Shown here: positions 35,946 through 49,866 of the stretch, piece after piece | Layout of the letters: every line of letters begins with the position of its first letter | Numbering within the stretch: position 1 is the stretch's first letter | From: Catenovulum maritimum | GTDB taxonomy: Bacteria > Pseudomonadota > Gammaproteobacteria > Enterobacterales > Alteromonadaceae | DNA: 64,000 nucleotides | NCBI RefSeq assembly: GCF_001050375.1 | Contig: NZ_KQ130483.1 | Location: forward strand, 124,001-188,000 | Reading direction: 5' to 3' | Made by a program: the position numbers and the translations under genes | Notes under the pieces: model-generated | Database searches by the model: none | The model's input: only the letters and a program-made list of their open reading frames with translations | Told to the model about the DNA's origin: nothing

Positions 35946-36425
35946 CTATAAGGCTTGGTATTCAATATCAAAACTAAAGCTGATTGATAGCGCGGCTGGT
36001 ATCGTCTCATTAATATTAAGTATCCCTCCTATGTCAATATTTATAATACCATCACTACCTGTGATAATCTCTTCAGCCACTCCAGCGATTCCATCTATGC
36101 TAGTGCCATAATCATTGGATAATATAAATTTTTGTTCAAAGGCTATATCATAATCAGCATCGACGGAGGTATAAATTCTAATCCTAAATCTTTCATTCGC
36201 CCCTGAAATAAGCTGATATTGCCCTTGTTTTGAATTTCTTAAACAAAAGCTAGCACCAAGAATAATTTGCCCATTACTAGGGTCCATTTCACAACTGCCC
36301 GACTTCGGCACTAGGCTGCCAAAAGACAAATTTTGTACTTGAGTTAGGCTAGCGCAATTGGTTTCAAAACTGAATACGAGCGCTATAAATACTAAATACT
36401 GAGTCAGGTTATATTTTTTTAACAT
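35946..36425 (-). CDS. DUF4402-like minor (possibly tip) pilin
   Basis: This 159-residue protein (ATG 36425, preceded by a GC-rich GCGGGGG stretch; a longer frame runs into the usher gene) has a signal peptide ending near residue 26 (ETNCAS). The rest follows the DUF4402 pattern: VQNLSFGSLVPKSG, a GQYQLISGANERFRIRIYT strand and a closing DIGGILNINETIPAA... DIEYQAL. Two Cys in the N-terminal half could form a disulfide. As the last gene of the operon, it is the likely minor or tip subunit, by analogy with chaperone-usher systems; not shown. Confidence 0.75.
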   Translation of the reverse strand: MLKKYNLTQYLVFIALVFSFETNCASLTQVQNLSFGSLVPKSGSCEMDPSNGQIILGASFCLRNSKQGQYQLISGANERFRIRIYTSVDADYDIAFEQKFILSNDYGTSIDGIAGVAEEIITGSDGIINIDIGGILNINETIPAALSISFSFDIEYQAL

Positions 36426-39400
36426 AAGCCCCCGCAGGTTTTTTTGCACCTAACTGCTCAAGAATAAGCTTGGCCTGCTGATGGCTATTAAAACGACCAA
36501 GATAAACTCGACACCAAGCATGATTACGAATAACAAACACAGGCAAACTAAATTCAGCTTGTTCTTTACGTTTAATCGCTTCGCAGGAAGTATTACTTTG
36601 TGCCGCCGCTAATTGGATTGCATATATAGCGTGAGAGTTTACATGCTCGTTTTGTTTTAAAATAGTTACTTCAGTTAGATTGTTTTGGACAGATCGCTTA
36701 ATCGGCTGCTGGACCGAATGCTTGGCTGGGGGCTTGGCAGAAATTAGCTCAGTTGTGCTCGGCGCTACTATTTCTAATGCTTGTTCAACCTGTTCAACAT
36801 CTAACCGCTGTAAGCTGAAACTAGCTAATTCAACTAGATCTCGACTGCCGTCTATTTTGACATCAATAAATTCAGGTACTGAGATTAAGCCTTTTTCATG
36901 TAAAAAGGATTGCTCAATCCTAACTTGATAATAGCCAGGCCAAACTTTATCAAATATAAACACATGATCAAATTCGCTATAACTTGTCTTTACGACCTTT
37001 CCATCTCTAACTAATTCTATTGGTAAATATTGAGGTTTATAACTCGAATCATCCAACTCAAATTCTAGTTGACCAATTAACTCGGCAGCATAATTGTAAG
37101 GTAAATCCAGATCGATAATGCCACCAGGGTGGCTGAACACCTTAAAATCTGCATAAATTGGGGTCAAATTACTCGCTTTAGTGTCATGGGCATTAACATA
37201 AATCTGAGTGGGTACCTGCGAAGTTAGCCCAGTCAGATATACAGCACCATTTTCACCAGAAACTTTATCTATCCACTGTTTTTTTCCACCAAACTTTAGG
37301 TTTTCAATGACTTCATCAGAGCGATCATAAATAGCATTTTGATTGTGATCGATAAAATTAAACAAATCCAAAGTACCCGACGCAGGACTGTAGCCATAAT
37401 TGATATCAATTTGATCCTTATGATAATCCCAATCAAGATTAAAACTTATGCCCAGCGCAACTTGCCAATGTGATTGATTATCCGCCTGAGCACTCATGGT
37501 TAAGTTATAATCATCTCTTTGCCAACTCAAATAACTGGTCAGATTATAATGATCCCCTTTATTAGCTTGCAGGCTAGTTTGGTTATTCAGTTTGGGGGAT
37601 ATCCGCCAATTTAAATTTAATCTAGCCGAATCAAAATGCGACTGTCCCGCGTTAGGTTTTAAATCAAAACTCGCGAGCGCTCTAAAATTAATATCGTCCG
37701 TTAAGCGAGTAGAAATTGCAATGTCGTCTGTCACTGAATTTGTATCAGGTCCATAACGATAACGAGTCACGTTGGTAAAATTAAATCGTCTATATCGCCA
37801 TGATAACCGAGTCGCTAAACTATCATAGCGAGTCATATTGTTTAAGCTCGAATCAGTTTGCTCAACTTGACTTTGATTACCACTAATTAACCAAGCTAAT
37901 TTTTTAAATCGACCGGAAAATGAAGCGCTGAAGTCCGTTCTAATCTCGTCATTATTACTAATGCTATTAAGACTTTGATATTGACTTAACCGCCTAGCAC
38001 CAAGCTGATAACGAATTGAATTACTAAATAAACTACCGAGTAAATCTAGCTCTGCACCATATCCTGATTCTCCTTGATGCTTAAGATTTACATCTAATAA
38101 TGCATTATTTAGCTGTTGCGTTAATGACAATATATATTCTGCATTAGCGGAAGCGCTTGCTGTCGCCTGTTGCTGAAATATTGAAAGTCCCAAAGTAGTA
38201 CTAGAACTTAAGCCATATTCAGTTTGTATATATCCTGCTAAATTGGACGATTCTTCACGATTAAAAATACTCGAATCATTAAACATGCTATGGCGAGTAT
38301 CAAATACGCCTCCGGTATAATTAAAACTCCCGACTTTAAGTTGATTACCGCCAATTATGATTTCACGCACTATGGTGTCTTCTTCACCAAATTCGCCATA
38401 GAGTTTAATCTCGAACCTATTCACACCATAGCTAGTTTCAACTTGCTCAAATTTAATCAAGCCATCAGTCGAAACTTGACCGGTTTGGATTAGATAACCA
38501 TTACTATAAAGTTCTGCTTGCCAGTTTGCTGGTGCAAATTCCTCTAACGTAATTGCGCCATAATAATTAGTGTATCTACGCTCTAAACTACTAAAAGTGA
38601 AACCAACCCCAGAGTAAGCGACGCCCGCTCGGTTATTATTTACTGTCACATCACCAAATTGATACTGACTTAAACCAGCAAATAAGCTTTGATTCGGGCT
38701 AGGTTTAAATCGAGAAAAAGTCATTCTTGCATTTAAATCGTCACCTTTTACTTGGCTTAAATTAATATTAGCGGAATGATAAAGAATGTCGTTGTAGCTA
38801 TGTAAATTATATTGATAGCCCAAATCTGTGTTATCAGACTGATTCAGATTTAACCTTACAGCCCCTTTGGGTGGTGTGTATAAACGATATTTATCTGGAA
38901 TGACAAATTCAAAATTTGGTTCTGTATTTCTAGACTGACTAACGACACTTCTCTTAGCTCTAGCAATACGTTTTTGAATCGGAAACACATCAGTATTCGC
39001 TTTAAAGCTGAATAATAAAGCTGAAAAATCAAGCTGAATACTTGCGTCTATCAAATCTGCAAAATCTTTCACATTCAACCACAGATCTTCTGAAGTGATA
39101 AAGTAATGGTATTGTTTTAGTTGTTTGAAGTCTAACGCCAAAACTTGACCATTAATTTTGCCAGCTAAGATGGTTTTTTCAGGATTAAAATTAAGGTTTA
39201 GTTCCAGACTAGATGAGATAAAGTTAACGGGTAAATAGAAGTCTCCCTGATAAGATAAGACATCTATACTCTCTAATATTCTGGTTCTGTCCGATAATTC
39301 AATATCAAACAACTCGTAATTCGCCGCACTTGGGTTTAACGCTTCTGCATTAAGCTTAGTGATACAAATTGAGTGCAGTATCAAACAGCTAAGAATTAAC

Positions 39401-39429
39401 TGTCTTATGAAATTTAAGGCTGAGTCCAA
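36409..39429 (-). CDS. Outer-membrane usher with C-terminal SPOR-like domain
   Basis: This 1006-residue protein has the features of a fimbrial usher of an alternate chaperone-usher class: signal peptide (about 1-28), N-terminal domain with SYQGDFYLPVNFISSSL, then a long beta-rich barrel region (about 165-680). It is followed by a Ca-binding-like segment DHNQNAIYDRSDE near residues 688-700 and carboxypeptidase-like domains (about 700-870). The last 74 residues (933-1006) look like a SPOR domain: YAIQLAAAQ, then WCRVYLGRFNSHQQAKLILEQLG. SPOR domains bind denuded peptidoglycan. The start seems to be TTG at 39429, 16 bp inside the chaperone gene, with no better codon. Confidence 0.82.
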   Translation of the reverse strand: MDSALNFIRQLILSCLILHSICITKLNAEALNPSAANYELFDIELSDRTRILESIDVLSYQGDFYLPVNFISSSLELNLNFNPEKTILAGKINGQVLALDFKQLKQYHYFITSEDLWLNVKDFADLIDASIQLDFSALLFSFKANTDVFPIQKRIARAKRSVVSQSRNTEPNFEFVIPDKYRLYTPPKGAVRLNLNQSDNTDLGYQYNLHSYNDILYHSANINLSQVKGDDLNARMTFSRFKPSPNQSLFAGLSQYQFGDVTVNNNRAGVAYSGVGFTFSSLERRYTNYYGAITLEEFAPANWQAELYSNGYLIQTGQVSTDGLIKFEQVETSYGVNRFEIKLYGEFGEEDTIVREIIIGGNQLKVGSFNYTGGVFDTRHSMFNDSSIFNREESSNLAGYIQTEYGLSSSTTLGLSIFQQQATASASANAEYILSLTQQLNNALLDVNLKHQGESGYGAELDLLGSLFSNSIRYQLGARRLSQYQSLNSISNNDEIRTDFSASFSGRFKKLAWLISGNQSQVEQTDSSLNNMTRYDSLATRLSWRYRRFNFTNVTRYRYGPDTNSVTDDIAISTRLTDDINFRALASFDLKPNAGQSHFDSARLNLNWRISPKLNNQTSLQANKGDHYNLTSYLSWQRDDYNLTMSAQADNQSHWQVALGISFNLDWDYHKDQIDINYGYSPASGTLDLFNFIDHNQNAIYDRSDEVIENLKFGGKKQWIDKVSGENGAVYLTGLTSQVPTQIYVNAHDTKASNLTPIYADFKVFSHPGGIIDLDLPYNYAAELIGQLEFELDDSSYKPQYLPIELVRDGKVVKTSYSEFDHVFIFDKVWPGYYQVRIEQSFLHEKGLISVPEFIDVKIDGSRDLVELASFSLQRLDVEQVEQALEIVAPSTTELISAKPPAKHSVQQPIKRSVQNNLTEVTILKQNEHVNSHAIYAIQLAAAQSNTSCEAIKRKEQAEFSLPVFVIRNHAWCRVYLGRFNSHQQAKLILEQLGAKKPAGAYVKKI

Positions 39430-40175
39430 GATGCGCTCGCGTTACCGAACTTTTCGGATTCGACAAACCTAAGTTTCAGCTTACCGCTGGCTTTATTTTT
39501 TAAAGTTAACGACTTTGGTAAACTCTGAGTTTGTTGATAAATAGAGAGGCCTTTGACAAAAGTAAGGATATTATCTGATTCGTCTAAAACATCGATTCGG
39601 CCGTATAAAGAACGATTACCTTCTCGATTAAGATTAAATTGTATAGTTTGCTGATTATTCTGTTCTAAAATATCGACATCAGAAAAATGCACTTTTGCGC
39701 CTAGCTGACCTTTTCTAACAATTACCGGAATATTAAAGACAAAATTGGGGGTTATTTGCATTTTTTGATCTGTTGCTTTGACCAAATTCTTGCATCTTAA
39801 ACTTAAATACGAAACCCACTCCGCATTAGGTTGACGGCGCAAGTTACGGGCTATAACTTTGATTTTTTGAGCTTGATTAGGCTCTAGCCTAATTCTTTTA
39901 GGTGACGCTCGTAGCAAAGCTTTGGCACTAGTTGTCGGGCCATTTCCATTTTTGACGCTTCTTAATTGTCCATTGGCTGTTACATTAAAATCGATAAACT
40001 GAGTTGTACATTCGGCTGCCGAAGTGCCTTGATTATAAAACTGGTAGTCATATTTAGGATTCGCTTCAGTCAATAATATCCTATGTTCTGTTAAATGCAT
40101 TTTAGGCTGAGCATAACAGTAATTTGTTATGCTCAAACAAAAAATAAAACTAGAAAATAGAAATTTCAACAACAT
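39414..40175 (-). CDS. PapD-like periplasmic fimbrial chaperone
   Basis: This 253-residue protein has a signal peptide (about 1-22) and the immunoglobulin-like chaperone fold: a first-domain strand LTEHRILLTEANPKYDYQFYNQG, then SPKRIRLEPNQAQKIKVIARN, corresponding to the G1 donor-strand region. A second domain follows, ending in a LKLRFVESEKFG strand. It would carry the DUF4402 subunits to the usher. It sits between the major pilin (stop 40176) and the usher gene, which it overlaps by 16 bp. Confidence 0.85.
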   Translation of the reverse strand: MLLKFLFSSFIFCLSITNYCYAQPKMHLTEHRILLTEANPKYDYQFYNQGTSAAECTTQFIDFNVTANGQLRSVKNGNGPTTSAKALLRASPKRIRLEPNQAQKIKVIARNLRRQPNAEWVSYLSLRCKNLVKATDQKMQITPNFVFNIPVIVRKGQLGAKVHFSDVDILEQNNQQTIQFNLNREGNRSLYGRIDVLDESDNILTFVKGLSIYQQTQSLPKSLTLKNKASGKLKLRFVESEKFGNASASWTQP

Positions 40176-40766
40176 TTAATATGTCGCCGTTATATCGAAT
40201 TGCTCAGTATAAGTTGTGTTCGCTGTTAAACTCGTTGAGCCTATCGTAATAGTGCCACCAATAACCAAATTAATATTGCCAGAAGTGGTATCTAACGTCA
40301 TAGTTTCTGGCTGATCACGGGTAACCGTCGTTGCCGCTGAATAGGCAGCCGTATCATCAACCGCTAAAATTTCTGGATCAAAATTAAAATCTGTCGCAGA
40401 AACTGAACTCACTGTGATGTTAACCGTTTGTCCTGGCTCACCATTCAAAACGTATATCCCAGAGAAGTTATTCGTGACTGAATCAGATATGTTAATACAA
40501 CCAGCTCCGCTTAAGCCATCTGTGATATCTGCATTTGCCACAGCACCTGTGCCAGTCGTGTCATTAAAACTAGGCGAAGTAGTACACTGTGAACTCGCCG
40601 TGCCAAATACATTCTGACCAAAAGATAATGAGCTTACCTGAGTAATATTTAAGTCTTGTAAGGTAACAAAGCCGACATCAAAGGATAATGTAACCGCTGC
40701 TAACATACTACTATTGAGTAAAGCAGCAGTAAAAATACCTTTTTTTAATATTTTTTTTGCTTTCAT
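40176..40766 (-). CDS. DUF4402-like major pilin
   Basis: This protein (196 residues from ATG 40766, preceded by GCGAG at 6 bp; an ATG two codons upstream is possible) has a signal peptide ending about residue 24 (SSMLAAV). The DUF4402 pattern is clear: VSSLSFGQNVFG near the start, GEPGQTVNITV in the middle and LVIGGTITIG... FDITATY at the end. The mature protein is rich in Thr, Ser, Ala and Asn, as expected of an extracellular fibre. It is the first pilus gene in the operon, fitting the main structural subunit. Two Cys in the N-terminal half may form a disulfide. Confidence 0.82.
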   Translation of the reverse strand: MKAKKILKKGIFTAALLNSSMLAAVTLSFDVGFVTLQDLNITQVSSLSFGQNVFGTASSQCTTSPSFNDTTGTGAVANADITDGLSGAGCINISDSVTNNFSGIYVLNGEPGQTVNITVSSVSATDFNFDPEILAVDDTAAYSAATTVTRDQPETMTLDTTSGNINLVIGGTITIGSTSLTANTTYTEQFDITATY

Positions 40767-40797
40767 TTGCATCTCGCTTTCTAGTTTATTTTTTAAT

Positions 40798-40881: not shown

Positions 40882-41415
40882 TTAGTTAAAAGGCAATGAA
40901 ACTCGGTAGCTAGCCGCCAGTTTATTGTTAGCTACTGGCTTAACTGATGTTGTAATAATGAGCCGTTGATTTTCAATTTCAATTTGTCCATCTAGAACAA
41001 AGCGGTTAATGCTTGCCGCTTTATTAACAAGAGCATGTGCAACAATATGCCCATGTTTTTCTCTAGTTCCCAATTTTTGTTTAATTAGCCGACTTAAGTC
41101 TTCCGATAAACCCTTAAGAGATTGATGGCTATGAGTAACTTGATAAGGCTTAGCGGCAATAAAAGCTGATGGACCGAGTTGTTTGTCTATTTCATAAATG
41201 ATTCGCTCCGCAACAACAGGCAGCTGTTTAGGTAAATAATCAGGCATACTAGGAATAAAATTAGGGGTTGCGGGCATGTTTGAAGCATTAGGCTGTACTT
41301 GGTGACCATAGCCATAATAAGCAAATTGATTCGCCACATGCTGATGATAATCCATCGAGGAGCAACTCAATAATGATAAGCAAATTAACCCAACAAAATA
41401 ACAACGACTAAACAA
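40882..41415 (-). CDS. Second putative lipoprotein at the DUF4402 locus
   Basis: This 177-residue protein has a lipobox LLSC near residue 18 after a hydrophobic segment. TTG at 41415 appears to be the start codon; no ATG precedes the signal sequence. A Pro/Asn-rich linker (PATPNFIPSMPDYLPKQLPV) follows, then a helical and beta C-terminal domain with FVLDGQIEIENQRLIITTSV and AASYRVSLPFN, again faintly FlgO-like. It lies 115 bp upstream of the major pilin start on the same strand and may be the first gene of the pilus operon. Confidence 0.65.
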   Translation of the reverse strand: MFSRCYFVGLICLSLLSCSSMDYHQHVANQFAYYGYGHQVQPNASNMPATPNFIPSMPDYLPKQLPVVAERIIYEIDKQLGPSAFIAAKPYQVTHSHQSLKGLSEDLSRLIKQKLGTREKHGHIVAHALVNKAASINRFVLDGQIEIENQRLIITTSVKPVANNKLAASYRVSLPFN

Positions 41416-42121: not shown

Positions 42122-42178
42122 ATGAATACTATGAATTACTTGAATACACTTGGCCATCATTATCATCATAACCAATAG
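42122..42178 (+). CDS. hisL: His operon leader peptide
   Basis: This 18-codon frame, MNTMNYLNTLGHHYHHNQ, is too short for routine gene finding but is clear: four His codons within five (42155-42169) just before the stop TAG (42176-42178), directly followed by an attenuator and hisG. Ribosomes stalling at the His codons when charged His-tRNA is scarce would change the downstream RNA fold. A second ATG at 42131 is an alternative start; neither has a strong ribosome binding site. Seven-His leaders are known in E. coli; four here. Confidence 0.88.
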   Translation: MNTMNYLNTLGHHYHHNQ

Positions 42179-42264
42179 CCTTCAGGTAATCGAAGGCACT
42201 ACCCTATTGTAGCCTTCCGATGTAATCATTTTAAAACCCTCGGAAGTGAACCGGGGGTTTTTTT
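42179..42264 (+). promoter_or_regulatory. His attenuator (pause, antiterminator and terminator stems)
   Basis: Mutually exclusive stems can be read: B CCTTC (42179-42183) with C GAAGG (42192-42196); C GAAGGC (42192-42197) with D GCCTTC (42212-42217); D CTTCCGA (42214-42220) with E TCGGAAG (42240-42246); and the terminator E AAAACCCTCGG (42233-42243) with F CCGGGGGTTTT (42251-42261), 11 bp with one G-U pair, followed by a T-run. Stalling at the His codons leaves B free, so B:C and D:E form and transcription continues. A ribosome at the stop codon covers B, so C:D and E:F form and transcription ends. Confidence 0.88.
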
Positions 42265-42395: not shown

Positions 42396-43586
42396 ATGTC
42401 CCTATACGACGCTGTTATGGCTATTCCAAGAAGTGGCCGAACGTTCGAAAATTTTATCAGCAAACTGAGTAGCCAAACCCAAGATTTGCCTAATGCAGAA
42501 GCCTTAATCAAGGCCGTTAAAGCAGGTAAAAAACGTAAAGATCAAAATTACGCAGTTGCAAGTCAGTATTTAACTGAACTACAAAGCTCTCCCGTTGCCA
42601 GTAATTTAGGCTTATTTATTGACAGAAAACGCGAAGAAAGACCGTATCGTGTCGGTTTTTTAGGCGCAGATGTCGAAATTGGTGGCTTAAATGTACGAAT
42701 TGAAGGTGATGAGCCACACAACTGCTCTTCACTGGTCGGCTTAGGTGAAGCTGATATCGCAGTTGCCGGTTTGGATGAATTACTCGCAGTTACCCACAAT
42801 TCGTTAAGTATGTCTGCGACTAAATGGGGTATGTACAACTACAACCTGAAAAAAGAACATAAAGTTCGCATTGCAGGTTCTGCTATGTTGACCCGATACA
42901 ATGATGTCGTTTCTCGCGAAGTCCAAGATATGGTTGGCTTTTTCCTAATTGCTAAGCAAAGGCCAAGTAGCGGACCTAACACTGGCTACCCTAAAGATTA
43001 TTTAGAGCATTTAGAGACGCACAAGAACAAAGTATTTGTTAAAGGTAGATACGTAGAGAAAGTACGAAAATCTTATCCTAAATTAAATATTGAGCCTGTG
43101 CATGACGTTGAAGATGCAGTTAACGATAGCGAAACAGGCGACGTCGGTTTAGAAATCGTACAAACAGGTTCTACATTAAGACGTAAAAATTTAGTATTAC
43201 TCGGTGCGCCTTTGTTTTTATCCGAGAGTTTATATGTGGTTGACTACTACAAATATAACTCTGGCACTGAAGATTCACTTAAAGCCTTATTAGACACATT
43301 CGCACCTGTCGGTTATTTTGAACAGCAAAGACTAGAACAATTTGCCTATTGGTATCATGCATTACAAGAAAACTTAGGCGATAGTTGGATTAATAAACCT
43401 AGAATCGAAGATATTTTCTGTAGCCATCAAGATTCGGTTCGTGGTTTGAGGCCATACAGTTTAAAAACTCGCTATTGGACCCCATCTGATAGTTACAAGC
43501 GTGATGATGCTTTTCAATTTGTTGAAAACTCAATCAGCGAGTTAAAAGATATTTATAATCAAGTTGTCAGCGGGCAACTAAAATAA
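42396..43586 (+). CDS. Divergent ATP phosphoribosyltransferase-like protein in the hisG position
   Basis: This 396-residue protein occupies the hisG slot: first gene after the attenuator, 26 bp before hisD, with a good AGGAAA ribosome binding site. It is not close to ordinary HisG, but HisG elements can be traced. VMAIPRSGRTFENF resembles the N-terminal IALPKGRL segment. GEADIAVAGLDELL (117-130) resembles the domain-II start (AADLGIVGKDVL-like). IVQTGSTL (254-261) matches the end of the PRPP-binding signature, with the usual Asp replaced by Glu253. It carries an extra stretch of about 40 residues after the N-terminal motif and a C-terminal part (about 290-396) with no evident HisG_C regulatory domain. 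No hisZ is nearby. Most likely it performs the first step of histidine synthesis, ATP plus PRPP to PR-ATP. Confidence 0.78.
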   Translation: MSLYDAVMAIPRSGRTFENFISKLSSQTQDLPNAEALIKAVKAGKKRKDQNYAVASQYLTELQSSPVASNLGLFIDRKREERPYRVGFLGADVEIGGLNVRIEGDEPHNCSSLVGLGEADIAVAGLDELLAVTHNSLSMSATKWGMYNYNLKKEHKVRIAGSAMLTRYNDVVSREVQDMVGFFLIAKQRPSSGPNTGYPKDYLEHLETHKNKVFVKGRYVEKVRKSYPKLNIEPVHDVEDAVNDSETGDVGLEIVQTGSTLRRKNLVLLGAPLFLSESLYVVDYYKYNSGTEDSLKALLDTFAPVGYFEQQRLEQFAYWYHALQENLGDSWINKPRIEDIFCSHQDSVRGLRPYSLKTRYWTPSDSYKRDDAFQFVENSISELKDIYNQVVSGQLK

Positions 43587-43612: not shown

Positions 43613-44911
43613 ATGCAAACACTTGTTTGGCAATCATTATCTCCTGAGCAGCAAGCTTCGGTATTACAACGCCCTGCCCTTGGTGACAGTGCAAAATTGT
43701 CTGAATTAGTAAAAGACATCATCAGCCAAGTTCGCCAAGATGGCGATCAAGCGATTTTTGAATTAACCAAGAAATTTGATGGTTTAGATTTAGCTGACTT
43801 AAGAGTGAGCAAAGCTGAAATTGACAATTCAGAAAATGAGTTAGGCGATAATATAAAAGCAGCCATTGAGCTGGCACACAAACAAGTTAAAGTATTTCAC
43901 GAAGCGCAAAAGCAAGACGTAATAAAAGTAGAAACTACACCGGGTGTAATTTGCGAATTACACAACCAACCAATTGAAGCTGTTGGTTTGTATATCCCAG
44001 GTGGTACAGCGCCATTACCTTCTACTGTATTAATGCTTTCTACACCGGCTCGTATTGCTGGTTGTAAACGTTTAGTGCTTGCAACGCCTCCAGGTAAAGA
44101 CGGCAAGATTAAAGCGGAAATTCGCTATGCTGCTAAAATTTGTGGTGTTGACGAAATATATATGGTTGGTGGCGCACAAGCCATTGCTGCATTAGCCTAC
44201 GGCACGCAAAGTATTAAGAAAGTGAATAAAATATTTGGTCCGGGCAATAGCTTTGTCACCGAAGCTAAACAACAGGTTAGCCAAGATCACATGGGCGCAG
44301 CAATTGATATGCCTGCAGGTCCATCAGAAGTATTAGTGATTGCAGATGAACAAGCTAATCCTGAATTTGTTGCTGCAGATTTATTATCTCAAGCTGAGCA
44401 TGGTAAAGACTCTCAAGTTATTTTATTAACCACGAGCCAAGCGCAAGCTCAAGCCTGTGCGCAAGCGGTTGAAAAACAATTAAAACAACTACCAAGAGAA
44501 GAAATTGCAGCTGGCGCTTTATCGCATAGCCGCATCATAATTACTGAGTCGATTGACCAAGCTATCGAAGTTAGCAATGAATATGCACCAGAGCATTTAA
44601 TTGTTCAAACTGAAGATGCTCGTGCTTTACTCCCAAGACTAGAAAATGCAGGTTCTATCTTCTTAGGTGCTTATTCACCTGAATCTGCTGGTGACTATGC
44701 AAGCGGAACGAATCACGTTTTACCGACATATGGTTACACAAAAACCTATAGCAGCTTAACCCTAGCGGATTTCTCTAAGCGCTTTACAGTGCAAGAGTTA
44801 ACTAAGCAAGGGTTAGAAGCAATTGGTCCAGCGATTATGGACTTAGCAGCAGCAGAAAGTTTAGATGCGCATAAAAATGCCGTCGCTGTCCGTTTAAATA
44901 GTTTAAAATAA
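43613..44911 (+). CDS. hisD: Histidinol dehydrogenase
   Basis: HisD catalyses the last two steps of histidine synthesis, oxidising L-histidinol to histidine with two NAD+ and a zinc ion. The 432 residues match the family: LYIPGGTAPLPSTVLM, FGPGNSFVTEAKQQV, DMPAGPSEVLVIADE, and LSQAEHGKDSQVIL, which carries the conserved zinc/catalytic His. The C-terminal DYASGTNHVLPT includes another conserved His. A GGAGACG ribosome binding site precedes the ATG. Confidence 0.97.
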   Translation: MQTLVWQSLSPEQQASVLQRPALGDSAKLSELVKDIISQVRQDGDQAIFELTKKFDGLDLADLRVSKAEIDNSENELGDNIKAAIELAHKQVKVFHEAQKQDVIKVETTPGVICELHNQPIEAVGLYIPGGTAPLPSTVLMLSTPARIAGCKRLVLATPPGKDGKIKAEIRYAAKICGVDEIYMVGGAQAIAALAYGTQSIKKVNKIFGPGNSFVTEAKQQVSQDHMGAAIDMPAGPSEVLVIADEQANPEFVAADLLSQAEHGKDSQVILLTTSQAQAQACAQAVEKQLKQLPREEIAAGALSHSRIIITESIDQAIEVSNEYAPEHLIVQTEDARALLPRLENAGSIFLGAYSPESAGDYASGTNHVLPTYGYTKTYSSLTLADFSKRFTVQELTKQGLEAIGPAIMDLAAAESLDAHKNAVAVRLNSLK

Positions 44912-44972: not shown

Positions 44973-45006
44973 GAAGAAAATTATTTGCTCATTGAAAGAG
45001 AGAGTT

Positions 45007-46071
45007 ATGAGTCTTGCAGATCAATTAACCAGAGAAAACATTCGAGGTTTAGTGCCTTACGCTTCAGCTCGTCGCAGCATGTCTGGCGGCGACATCTGGT
45101 TAAACGCTAACGAATCACCATTTGCTAATGAATATCAATTAGATAGTAGCGTGCTAAACCGCTACCCTGATTTTCAACCAAGTAAGCTTATTGAGTCTTA
45201 CGCCAGTTATGCAAAAGTATCAAAAGATCAAGTTTTAGCCAGCCGCGGTGCAGATGAAGCCATTGAATTATTAATTCGTACCTTTTGCGAAAATGATGAT
45301 CAAATATTAATTTGCCCACCGACATACGGTATGTACGCAATTAGTGCTGAAACTTGTAATATAGCTACCAAAAAAGTGCCGCTTAAGCCTGACTTTTCGT
45401 TAGACCTTGAAGCCATTACTCAGGCGACCGATAAGGTTAAGCTGGTATTTATCTGCTCACCAAATAATCCAACAGGGACCAGTGTTGACCATGAGCAAAT
45501 TAAAGCAGTTTTAGATATTTTTAAAGACAAAGCAATTGTTGCGGTTGATGAAGCTTATATTGAGTTTTCTGCAGACAACACCACGGCAGGCTGGGTTAAC
45601 GACTATCCGAACCTAGCTGTACTTAGGACCATGTCAAAAGCCTTTGGCTTAGCTGGTATTCGCTGCGGTTACACATTAGCAAATAAAGACATAATAAACG
45701 CTATGAGTAAAGTGATTGCACCTTACCCTATCAGCTGGCCTGTTGCGCAAATTGCAACACAAGCCCTTTCAGCTGAAGGCTTAGACAGAATGCAATCTCA
45801 ATTACAACAGATTAACGCGCAAAAACAAATTATAGTCGATGCATTAGACTCGCTTGACTATGTTTATGAGCAGGTGCCGAGTGACTCCAATTTTGTCATG
45901 TTCCGCACTAAAGCCAAGCAAGCTTTATTTAAAGCTTTAGTTGAAAATGGCATATTAATTAGAGACTACTCAAGCCAAATTATGCTTGATGACAGTTTAA
46001 GAATTTCAGTGGGTAGCGAATCCGAAACCCAAGCATTACTTAACGTAATGACTAATTTTTCAGGAAACTAA
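45007..46071 (+). CDS. hisC: Histidinol-phosphate aminotransferase
   Basis: HisC is a PLP-dependent aminotransferase that makes L-histidinol phosphate from imidazole acetol phosphate and glutamate. Start ATG 45007 (354 residues) fits the E. coli alignment ([15 protein letters not shown]) and is preceded by GAGAGAG; a TTG five codons earlier also reads in frame. Fold type I features are [19 protein letters not shown], the VDEAYIEF loop and the PLP Lys in [15 protein letters not shown]. Confidence 0.95.
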
Positions 46072-46072
46072 A

Positions 46073-47142
46073 ATGGCAAGACAAGCAATATTATTTATTG
46101 ATAGAGATGGCACATTAGTCGCAGAGCCACCTGTAGACTATCAATTAGATACATTAGAAAAACTGGTCTTTGAACCAAATGTAATACCAGCCATGCTTAA
46201 GTTAAAAGCAGCTGGTTTCCAACTTGTAATGGTTACAAACCAAGATGGTTTAGGCACAGATAGCTTCCCTACCGCGGATTTTGAACTTGCTCATAACAAG
46301 ATGATGGATATCTTCGCATCTCAAGGCGTTGTGTTTGATGACGTTTTAATTTGCCCACATTTTGAAGCCGACAATTGCAGCTGCCGTAAACCTAAATTAG
46401 GCATGGTAAAAGACTATTTACAACAAGGTAAAGTAGACTTCGAAAATTCATATGTTATTGGTGACAGAGCAACAGATATTCAGCTTGCCGACAATATGGG
46501 CATAAAAAGTTTCCAATATGGTCAGCCTGATATTAACTGGGACAGCATAGTTGAAGCATTAACGGTTAAAGCAAGAACCGCTAAAATTGAGCGCAACACC
46601 AGCGAAACTCAAATCACGGTTGAGGTAAATTTAGACAAACAAGCTAAAGCAGATATAGCAACAGGTGTTGGCTTTTTTGACCACATGCTAGATCAAATTT
46701 CAACCCACGGCGGCTTCTACATGAATATCAAAGTAGATGGTGATTTACATATAGACGATCATCACTCAGTAGAAGATACAGCACTTGCATTAGGCTTAGC
46801 GCTTAAACAAGCTTTAGGTAACAAACGTGGCATAGGTCGTTTTGGTTTTAGCTTACCTATGGACGAATGTTTAGCCCAGTGTTCGTTAGATATTTCTGGT
46901 CGCCCTTTCTGCAAATTTGAAGCTGATTTCACAACAGAAAAAGTCGGTGAAATGGCAACTGAAATGGTGCCTCATTTCTTCCGTTCTTTAGCTGATAGCA
47001 TGTTAATTACCTTACACTTGTCTACAGATGGCGATAACGATCATCATAAAGTTGAAAGCTTATTTAAAGTATTTGGCCGAGCATTACGTCAAGCAATTAG
47101 AATTGAAGGCAACGAATTACCAAGCAGTAAAGGTGTTTTATA

Positions 47143-47143
<1 letters not shown>
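46073..47143 (+). CDS. hisB: Bifunctional histidinol-phosphatase / imidazoleglycerol-phosphate dehydratase
   Basis: This 356-residue fusion matches E. coli HisB. The N-terminal HAD phosphatase has FIDRDGTL (Asp10 and Asp12) and the zinc loop [15 protein letters not shown]. The C-terminal IGP dehydratase begins near residue 166 and has [27 protein letters not shown] and the later [19 protein letters not shown], whose His residues bind manganese. It catalyses steps 7 and 9 of histidine synthesis. It starts 1 bp after hisC and overlaps the hisH start by one base. Confidence 0.97.
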
Positions 47144-49245
<2,102 letters not shown>

Positions 49246-49252
<7 letters not shown>

Positions 49253-49866
49253 TTACACTTGAAAACCTAGACCAATTAGCTTGGGAAAAAGGCGACGGCA
49301 TGCTGCCGCTAATCGTGCAAAATGCATTTTCAGGCAAAGTACTAATGCAAGGCTTTGCTAACAAAGCAGCGTTAGAAAAAACGTTTGAATCAGGCTTAGT
49401 CACTTTTTACAGCCGCAGTAAAGACAGATTATGGACTAAAGGTGAAGAATCTGGCAACAGCTTGAACCTAGTTGAATTATCAACTGATTGTGATCGCGAT
49501 AGCTTAATCGCTTTAGCGCAGCCAGTTGGACCAACTTGTCATACTGGAACTGAAACTTGTTGGGATACAGAAGCCCAGCCGCACTTAGCTTTTTTAAGTG
49601 ACTTACAAGATGTCATTGCATCGCGTAAAGGTACAGATCCAGAATCAAGCTACACAGCTCATTTATATTCTCGTGGTGTAAAACGCATCTCACAAAAAGT
49701 GGGTGAAGAAGGCGTAGAAGTCGCGCTTGCTGCAACCTCTGGTGATAAAGATGAGTTAATTTGTGAATCAGCTGATTTACTATATCACTTAACCGTGTTG
49801 CTTCAATCTATGGATTTAAGCTTAACTGACGTAATAGATAAACTGAAAGAGCGACACGCTAAATAG
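49246..49866 (+). CDS. hisI: Bifunctional phosphoribosyl-AMP cyclohydrolase / phosphoribosyl-ATP pyrophosphatase
   Basis: This 206-residue HisIE fusion carries out steps 2 and 3 of histidine synthesis. The N-terminal cyclohydrolase domain has [23 protein letters not shown] and [12 protein letters not shown], which holds zinc and magnesium ligands. The C-terminal pyrophosphatase domain has [18 protein letters not shown] and [13 protein letters not shown]. The GTG start at 49246 is preceded by GGAG. It ends the operon, 20 bp before a strong terminator. Confidence 0.96.

Follow-up and report, generated by a model that had tools for sequence, protein, structure and literature searches.

A divergent homologue of ATP phosphoribosyltransferase at the hisG position of the Catenovulum maritimum histidine operon

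The his operon of the window and its leader

The 64,000-nucleotide stretch of Catenovulum maritimum DNA analysed here (the window) carries a histidine biosynthesis operon on its forward (+) strand, with the gene order hisX-D-C-B-H-A-F-IE. "HisX" is a label we coined for the 396-residue product of the first gene (42396..43586, ATG start), a putative divergent ATP phosphoribosyltransferase (ATP-PRT) encoded in the slot of hisG. ATP-PRT catalyses the step that opens histidine synthesis and is subject to feedback regulation. The original prediction, made from the DNA letters, had described an unusually long reading frame with a few HisG-like motifs heading an otherwise ordinary his operon, and inspection of the sequence confirms the reading frame, its position and the motifs. 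The remainder of the operon is ordinary: hisD (43613..44911; TIGR00069, 544 bits), hisC (44992..46071; TIGR01141, 379 bits), bifunctional hisB (46073..47143; NF003937, 612 bits), hisH (47143..47760; TIGR01855, 221 bits), hisA (47757..48494; TIGR00007, 258 bits), hisF (48476..49252; TIGR00735, 356 bits) and hisIE (49246..49866; NF002747, 275 bits), the last encoding the user of phosphoribosyl-ATP (PR-ATP), all lie on the + strand and all seven exceed their NCBIfam equivalog cut-offs. Two genomes from other genera of the same family have the order hisG-D-C-B-H-A-F-IE, with a long-form hisG (HisGL) as the first gene, as hisX is in the window.

Upstream of hisX on the same strand is a His-rich leader open reading frame of 18 amino acids, four of them His (42122..42178, stop included), followed by a terminator-like hairpin and a T run (42233..42261; two such sites, against a mean of 0.3 in shuffled sequences). 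The fold of the leader region is better than that of 200 out of 200 shuffles (z -3.48), and on the strength of the leader, the hairpin and this comparison the his attenuator proposed earlier is plausible. Rfam, at its gathering score, gives no his leader match upstream of hisX. Short reading frames encoding three or more His lie ahead of hisX both in the window and in 6/6 Catenovulum-type relatives, and ahead of hisG in both of the same-family genomes inspected, counts that carry no shuffle control; none with at least three His is found upstream of hisX in the Chloroflexi member of the family (L024). From these sequence features, attenuation likely controls hisX in the Catenovulum types. Further upstream, on the reverse strand (36409-40772, -), are three adjacent genes that by eye encode usher-like (1006 aa), chaperone-like (253 aa) and pilin-like (198 aa) proteins; the trio gives no Pfam match at E 0.001 and is possibly a divergent surface-fibre system. 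Between this cluster and the his leader sits a gene for a 177-aa protein (40882-41415, -), by eye a probable lipoprotein, which has no Pfam match.

The HisX family and its homology to HisG

A scan of a genome collection yielded 24 relatives of HisX. Six are from Catenovulum, Gayadomonas or Alteromonadaceae and are conserved end to end at 80-82% identity; thirteen are Thiotrichales-type or gammaproteobacterial (49-59% identity), with bearers that include Thioploca, Thiomargarita and Beggiatoa kin; four are from Bacillota MAGs (44-47%) and one is from a Chloroflexi MAG (L024, 36%), the protein of which ends about 60 residues earlier than that of the window. Across all 25 aligned sequences 73 columns are invariant, residue 335 being the final one, and with 24 relatives and this degree of conservation the reading frame is not a chance one. 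Neither Pfam nor NCBIfam names the family. The Pfam HisG model (PF01634) scores the window protein at 16.5 bits (E 0.0081), under its cut-off of 25.5, and covers residues 248-288 only; at E<=1 it matches 22 of the 25 members, with a best E of 0.00059 and every match below the cut-off. NCBIfam gives no match to the window protein up to E 1, and a single member out of 25 touches TIGR00070 (E 0.044). The C-terminal regulatory domain HisG_C (PF08029) is absent from the two Pfam families that the window protein matches at E<=10, a threshold to be read with the fact that HMMER filters discard most matches above E about 0.1. It is likewise not among the seven Pfam families that match any of the 25 HisX proteins up to E 1, and is detected in 10/10 Chloroflexi HisGL proteins used as a control.

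Several features stand out along the protein (all coordinates on the + strand). Residues 10-15, I-P-R-S-G-R (42423..42440), are by profile alignment the counterpart of the K-x-G-R / S-K-G-R strand-loop of HisG; they contain the motif PRSGR (residues 11-15), in which P11, G14 and R15 are invariant and R12 is present in at least 90% of the 25 rows. An insertion of some 40 residues had been proposed, and the predicted model has helices there, at 34-46 and 52-64 (about residues 26-70; 42471..42605), which fall in a gap of the HisG profile alignment. Within the N-terminal lobe, conservation is highest in residues 100-130, from VRIEGDEPHN..SSL to GEADIAVAGLDELL (42693..42785), with GEADIAVAGLDELL itself at residues 117-130. 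The C-terminal part, residues 305-396 (43308..43583), is all-helical in the model, with no strands after residue 305, and replaces HisG_C, in keeping with the Pfam result and with the earlier suggestion that the regulatory domain is missing.

Is this protein a HisG at all? AlphaFold2, given the 25-sequence alignment, produced a model of the window protein with a pLDDT of 81.5 and a pTM of 0.83, in which residues 107-115 have pLDDT <50. In a Foldseek search of the PDB, the best 50 of 1130 matches (E<=10) to this model are all ATP-PRTs, at a best E of 2.5e-8 and 11-16% identity; the top matches are a 210-residue ATP-PRT and the short-form enzyme (HisGS) of P. arcticus. A model of the Chloroflexi member, built from a 15-sequence alignment (pLDDT 79.1, pTM 0.77), behaves in the same way, with ATP-PRTs making up all of the best 50 of 1160 matches (best E 3.9e-10), although the two alignments have rows in common and the models are thus not fully independent. 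HisG belongs to the type II periplasmic-binding-protein-like fold class, and it is ATP-PRTs alone, out of that class, that appear among the best 50 matches for each model, arguing against a non-HisG fold. Taken by query length, the TM-scores reach a modest 0.35-0.42 for the window model and 0.42-0.49 for the Chloroflexi member, and with rmsd values of mostly 5-8 A the way the lobes are arranged is uncertain.

Profile comparisons agree with the models. Aligned with hhalign to a set of 51 canonical HisGs, from which a filter had excluded 9 of 30 added short-form loci, the HisX profile places its columns 4-302 on columns 7-212 (probability 88, E 3e-6) and spans the catalytic core. The match is moderate against two short forms (probability 84) and weak against the 20 HisGs of the window's own order alone (probability 7, E 0.005). 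Searched against 177,635 PDB sequences, the profile has six matches at E<=10, and 6/6 are ATP-PRTs, with E values of 0.56-1.7 that are singly not significant. Its weak whole-genome matches are canonical HisGs in 12 cases out of 12, ten identified by Pfam and two by a PF01634 match at the same place. In single-sequence comparisons the similarity is low: phmmer of the window protein against the PDB returns chance-level matches alone, none of them HisG, and in pairwise alignments with four HisGs only the Chloroflexi one beats its 200 shuffles (long form L092, score 84 against a shuffle maximum of 52, n=200). Taken as a whole, HisX is a remote homologue of ATP-PRT that lies below the Pfam HisG cut-off. 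Ten of the 12 weak profile matches (L092-L101) are long-form, canonical HisGs from the Chloroflexi class, the closest to HisX among the canonical proteins encountered, which offers a lead on origin.

Predicted active site and comparison with the known ATP-PRT forms

The PRPP signature of HisG reads D-[LIV]-x-x-[ST]-G-x-T-[LMI]. The corresponding PRPP phosphate loop of HisX lies in residues 250-261, VGLEIVQTGSTL (43143..43178), where T257-G258-S259-T260 matches the HisG loop and [ST]-G-x-T-[LI] is kept in 25/25 members. The replacement of the signature Asp by Glu, already pointed out in the original prediction, is a property of the whole family: the residue is Glu253 in the window protein and Glu in all 25 HisX sequences, versus Asp in 51/51 of the canonical HisGs compared. 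A second acid, E239, is invariant in HisX and falls opposite the Glu of the G-[SA]-x-E motif when aligned with HisG. For P. arcticus HisGS, one report (PMC9734150) describes E163 as hydrogen-bonded to the PRPP 3'-OH, R32 and R56 as poised to aid the departure of pyrophosphate, and D179 as replaceable with small effect. Judged from spacing, E163 would be the Glu of G-[SA]-x-E and D179 the residue before T-G, and R101 of HisX may be the counterpart of R56. In the proposed active site, the loop T257-G258-x-T260 would be retained for the PRPP 5'-phosphate, E239 and E253 probably serve as the acids that bind the ribose, with E253 standing for the usual Asp, and the basic residues R12, R15 and R101 of the N-terminal lobe probably face phosphates. 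HisX would then condense ATP and PRPP to PR-ATP, which would be handled by HisIE.

Two forms of ATP-PRT are described (PMC8305728, PMC10795190): HisGL, of about 292 residues (292+/-11), which carries its feedback domain at the C terminus, and HisGS, of about 214 residues (214+/-9), which works with HisZ. With HisGL (PF01634 plus PF08029) HisX shares the predicted core fold and the T-G-x-T-L loop. However, HisGL has the ACT-like HisG_C where HisX has a helical tail, and Asp in the signature and no inserted helices where HisX has Glu, inserted helices and about 100 residues more. HisGS resembles HisX in having a catalytic core without HisG_C, but is about 180 residues shorter and needs HisZ, whereas HisX is expected to act alone, since no HisZ partner is found: the HisZ model TIGR00443 scores above its cut-off in 0/25 HisX genomes, and a HisGS control genome (G023) passes. 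This result and the length of 396 residues rule out a HisZ-dependent short form. Sub-threshold HisZ matches (none in G269, fragmented in G268) were rejected as candidates and read as HisS from their length, a reading backed at three loci by an anticodon-binding domain. By domain content, length and HisZ, HisX belongs to neither known form, and of the two modules known to sense histidine, HisG_C and HisZ, the models used find neither. Feedback control may differ, as first suggested. The inserted helices and the helical tail would set it apart from both.

HisX could also be an ordinary HisG that has diverged fast, with a decorative insertion and tail and the usual feedback inhibition by histidine. 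Such a protein would share with HisG the fold, the PRPP loop and the operon slot, as HisX does. However, the divergent form is kept in four lineages with its 73 invariant columns, which means that HisX is not one fast-evolving gene; both known carriers of histidine inhibition are missing from the model searches; and at 396 residues the protein lies outside both of the length ranges given above (PMC8305728). We consider this explanation unlikely. The HisX family is coherent, and very probably constitutes a third ATP-PRT architecture. A fuller version of this reading, in which the third architecture is self-contained, has a Glu-based PRPP signature, is either free of feedback or equipped with a new sensor in the insertion or tail, and has spread between phyla and ousted the usual enzyme, even within a working operon, has a good chance of being correct. 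Among the papers listed by a literature search that excluded preprints and most subscription papers, none describes such an ATP-PRT form in its title or the start of its abstract. If true, a third form devoid of the known regulatory modules would offer nature's own test of other ways to run or regulate this step, in an enzyme termed a promising antibiotic target (PMC10795190).

Distribution and the probable replacement of HisG

The HisX family is rare and scattered. It is found in 1/247 genomes of the window's order and, with the profile, in 1/398 genomes drawn from its phylum, the single hit in both cases being the window's own genome, and in 8/8 genomes of the window's genus, again with that genome included. 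Strong matches occur in 2/63 genomes of the order of Thiolinea; the profile is found in 4/17 genomes from the order of the Bacillota MAGs and in 1/343 from the class of the Chloroflexi MAG. Carriage by viruses or plasmids was considered and rejected: none of 19 candidate viral-contig stretches encodes a HisX relative and plasmid records give no match.

A check of the window's genome, which is 99.99% complete, for another hisG gave no PF01634 match, so that it has no other hisG that Pfam recognises. PF01634 is also absent from the genomes of all 24 relatives, many of which are MAGs with completeness not given, and hisD is present in every one of them. HisX and HisG do not occur together in any genome examined (one genome of the window's genus, G614, was left out). 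In the sample of the window's order HisG is present in 227/247 genomes, and the 18 same-family genomes from other genera all have HisG and none has HisX. The 20 genomes lacking HisG are that of the window and 19 others; these 19, of which several are very small, lack HisX too. When the order of Thiolinea and that of the Bacillota MAGs are combined, HisG is present in 0/6 HisX genomes versus 68/74 others (Fisher test, p 3e-6, ignoring shared ancestry). The six of those 74 with neither protein (G622, G625, G626, G627, G656 and G662) are from the order of Thiolinea and may be incomplete genomes, auxotrophs or bearers of yet another form. Given these six and the 19 of the order sample, a genome that lacks HisG need not carry HisX.

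The neighbourhoods of hisX differ between lineages. In the window, as in six relatives, it holds the hisG slot. The his clusters of the four Bacillota HisX genomes start at hisD, and two relatives without HisX have hisZ-hisG-hisD and hisG-hisD, respectively. The Chloroflexi member has a single gene between hisX and hisD-C-B; this gene (L024, 7039-7788) encodes 249 residues and has no Pfam match at 1e-8. At 17 of the 24 loci there is no his gene within the flanks examined. In three Thiotrichales-type loci hisS lies immediately upstream of hisX (L005, 2891-4228; L007, 4646-5980; L009, 4478-5839), each with its anticodon-binding domain, an adjacency that provides a histidine link outside the his operon.

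The 17 loci without a his neighbour, together with the weak sequence similarity to HisG and the exchange of the signature Asp for Glu, would fit a HisG-fold protein with another role, such as a regulator or an enzyme of other phosphoribosyl transfer, in organisms that obtain PR-ATP from an unrecognised enzyme or take up histidine. This is very improbable, as HisG is missing from 25/25 HisX genomes while hisD is kept in all 24 relatives, HisIE, which requires PR-ATP, is kept in the window and in the Bacillota genomes, and hisX follows a his leader and occupies the slot of hisG in the window as well as in six relatives. That a normal hisG is simply missing from the assemblies and the reading frame is a chance or fused one can be dismissed, since, although many relatives are MAGs and 6/61 Thiotrichales-order genomes without HisX also lack HisG, PF01634 is absent from the nearly complete genome of the window and from that of Catenovulum sediminis (L002), which has a complete chromosome record, and the Catenovulum types conserve the frame over its whole length. 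The predicted fold, the missing hisG and the lack of HisG in every HisX genome instead support a distinct form of ATP-PRT, as first suggested. We conclude with high confidence that HisX, with its HisG-like core, serves as the ATP-PRT of this organism and has displaced hisG.

How might this exchange have come about? In a tree of the 25 HisX sequences, the seven rows of Catenovulum type form a group (100/99) that also holds Cocleimonas, Thiolinea and one gammaproteobacterial MAG, separately from the remaining Thiotrichales-type rows. The tree has no outgroup, so any direction of transfer is inferred; its midpoint root is for drawing only, and L024 is on a very long branch. Because HisG is kept in all 18 genomes sampled from other genera of the family, the simplest interpretation is that the gene entered the genus by transfer and took over the place of hisG, and hisX probably displaced hisG in the Catenovulum genus by horizontal transfer. 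The donor was most likely Thiotrichales-like, and the incoming gene would now stand behind the local his attenuator. This would make the operon a clean case of a core gene swapped in place for a remote homologue. HisX is also a candidate for the missing first step of histidine synthesis in giant sulfur bacteria (Thioploca, Thiomargarita and Beggiatoa kin); if annotated by the cut-offs of Pfam or NCBIfam, these would be recorded as lacking that step. Further neighbours of hisX in the family include xseA-, murD- and secretion-type genes. At three loci (L008, 1179-2546; L010, 2688-4097; L013, 4584-6059) the gene beside hisX encodes the large subunit of exonuclease VII, with DUF5710 as its N-terminal domain.
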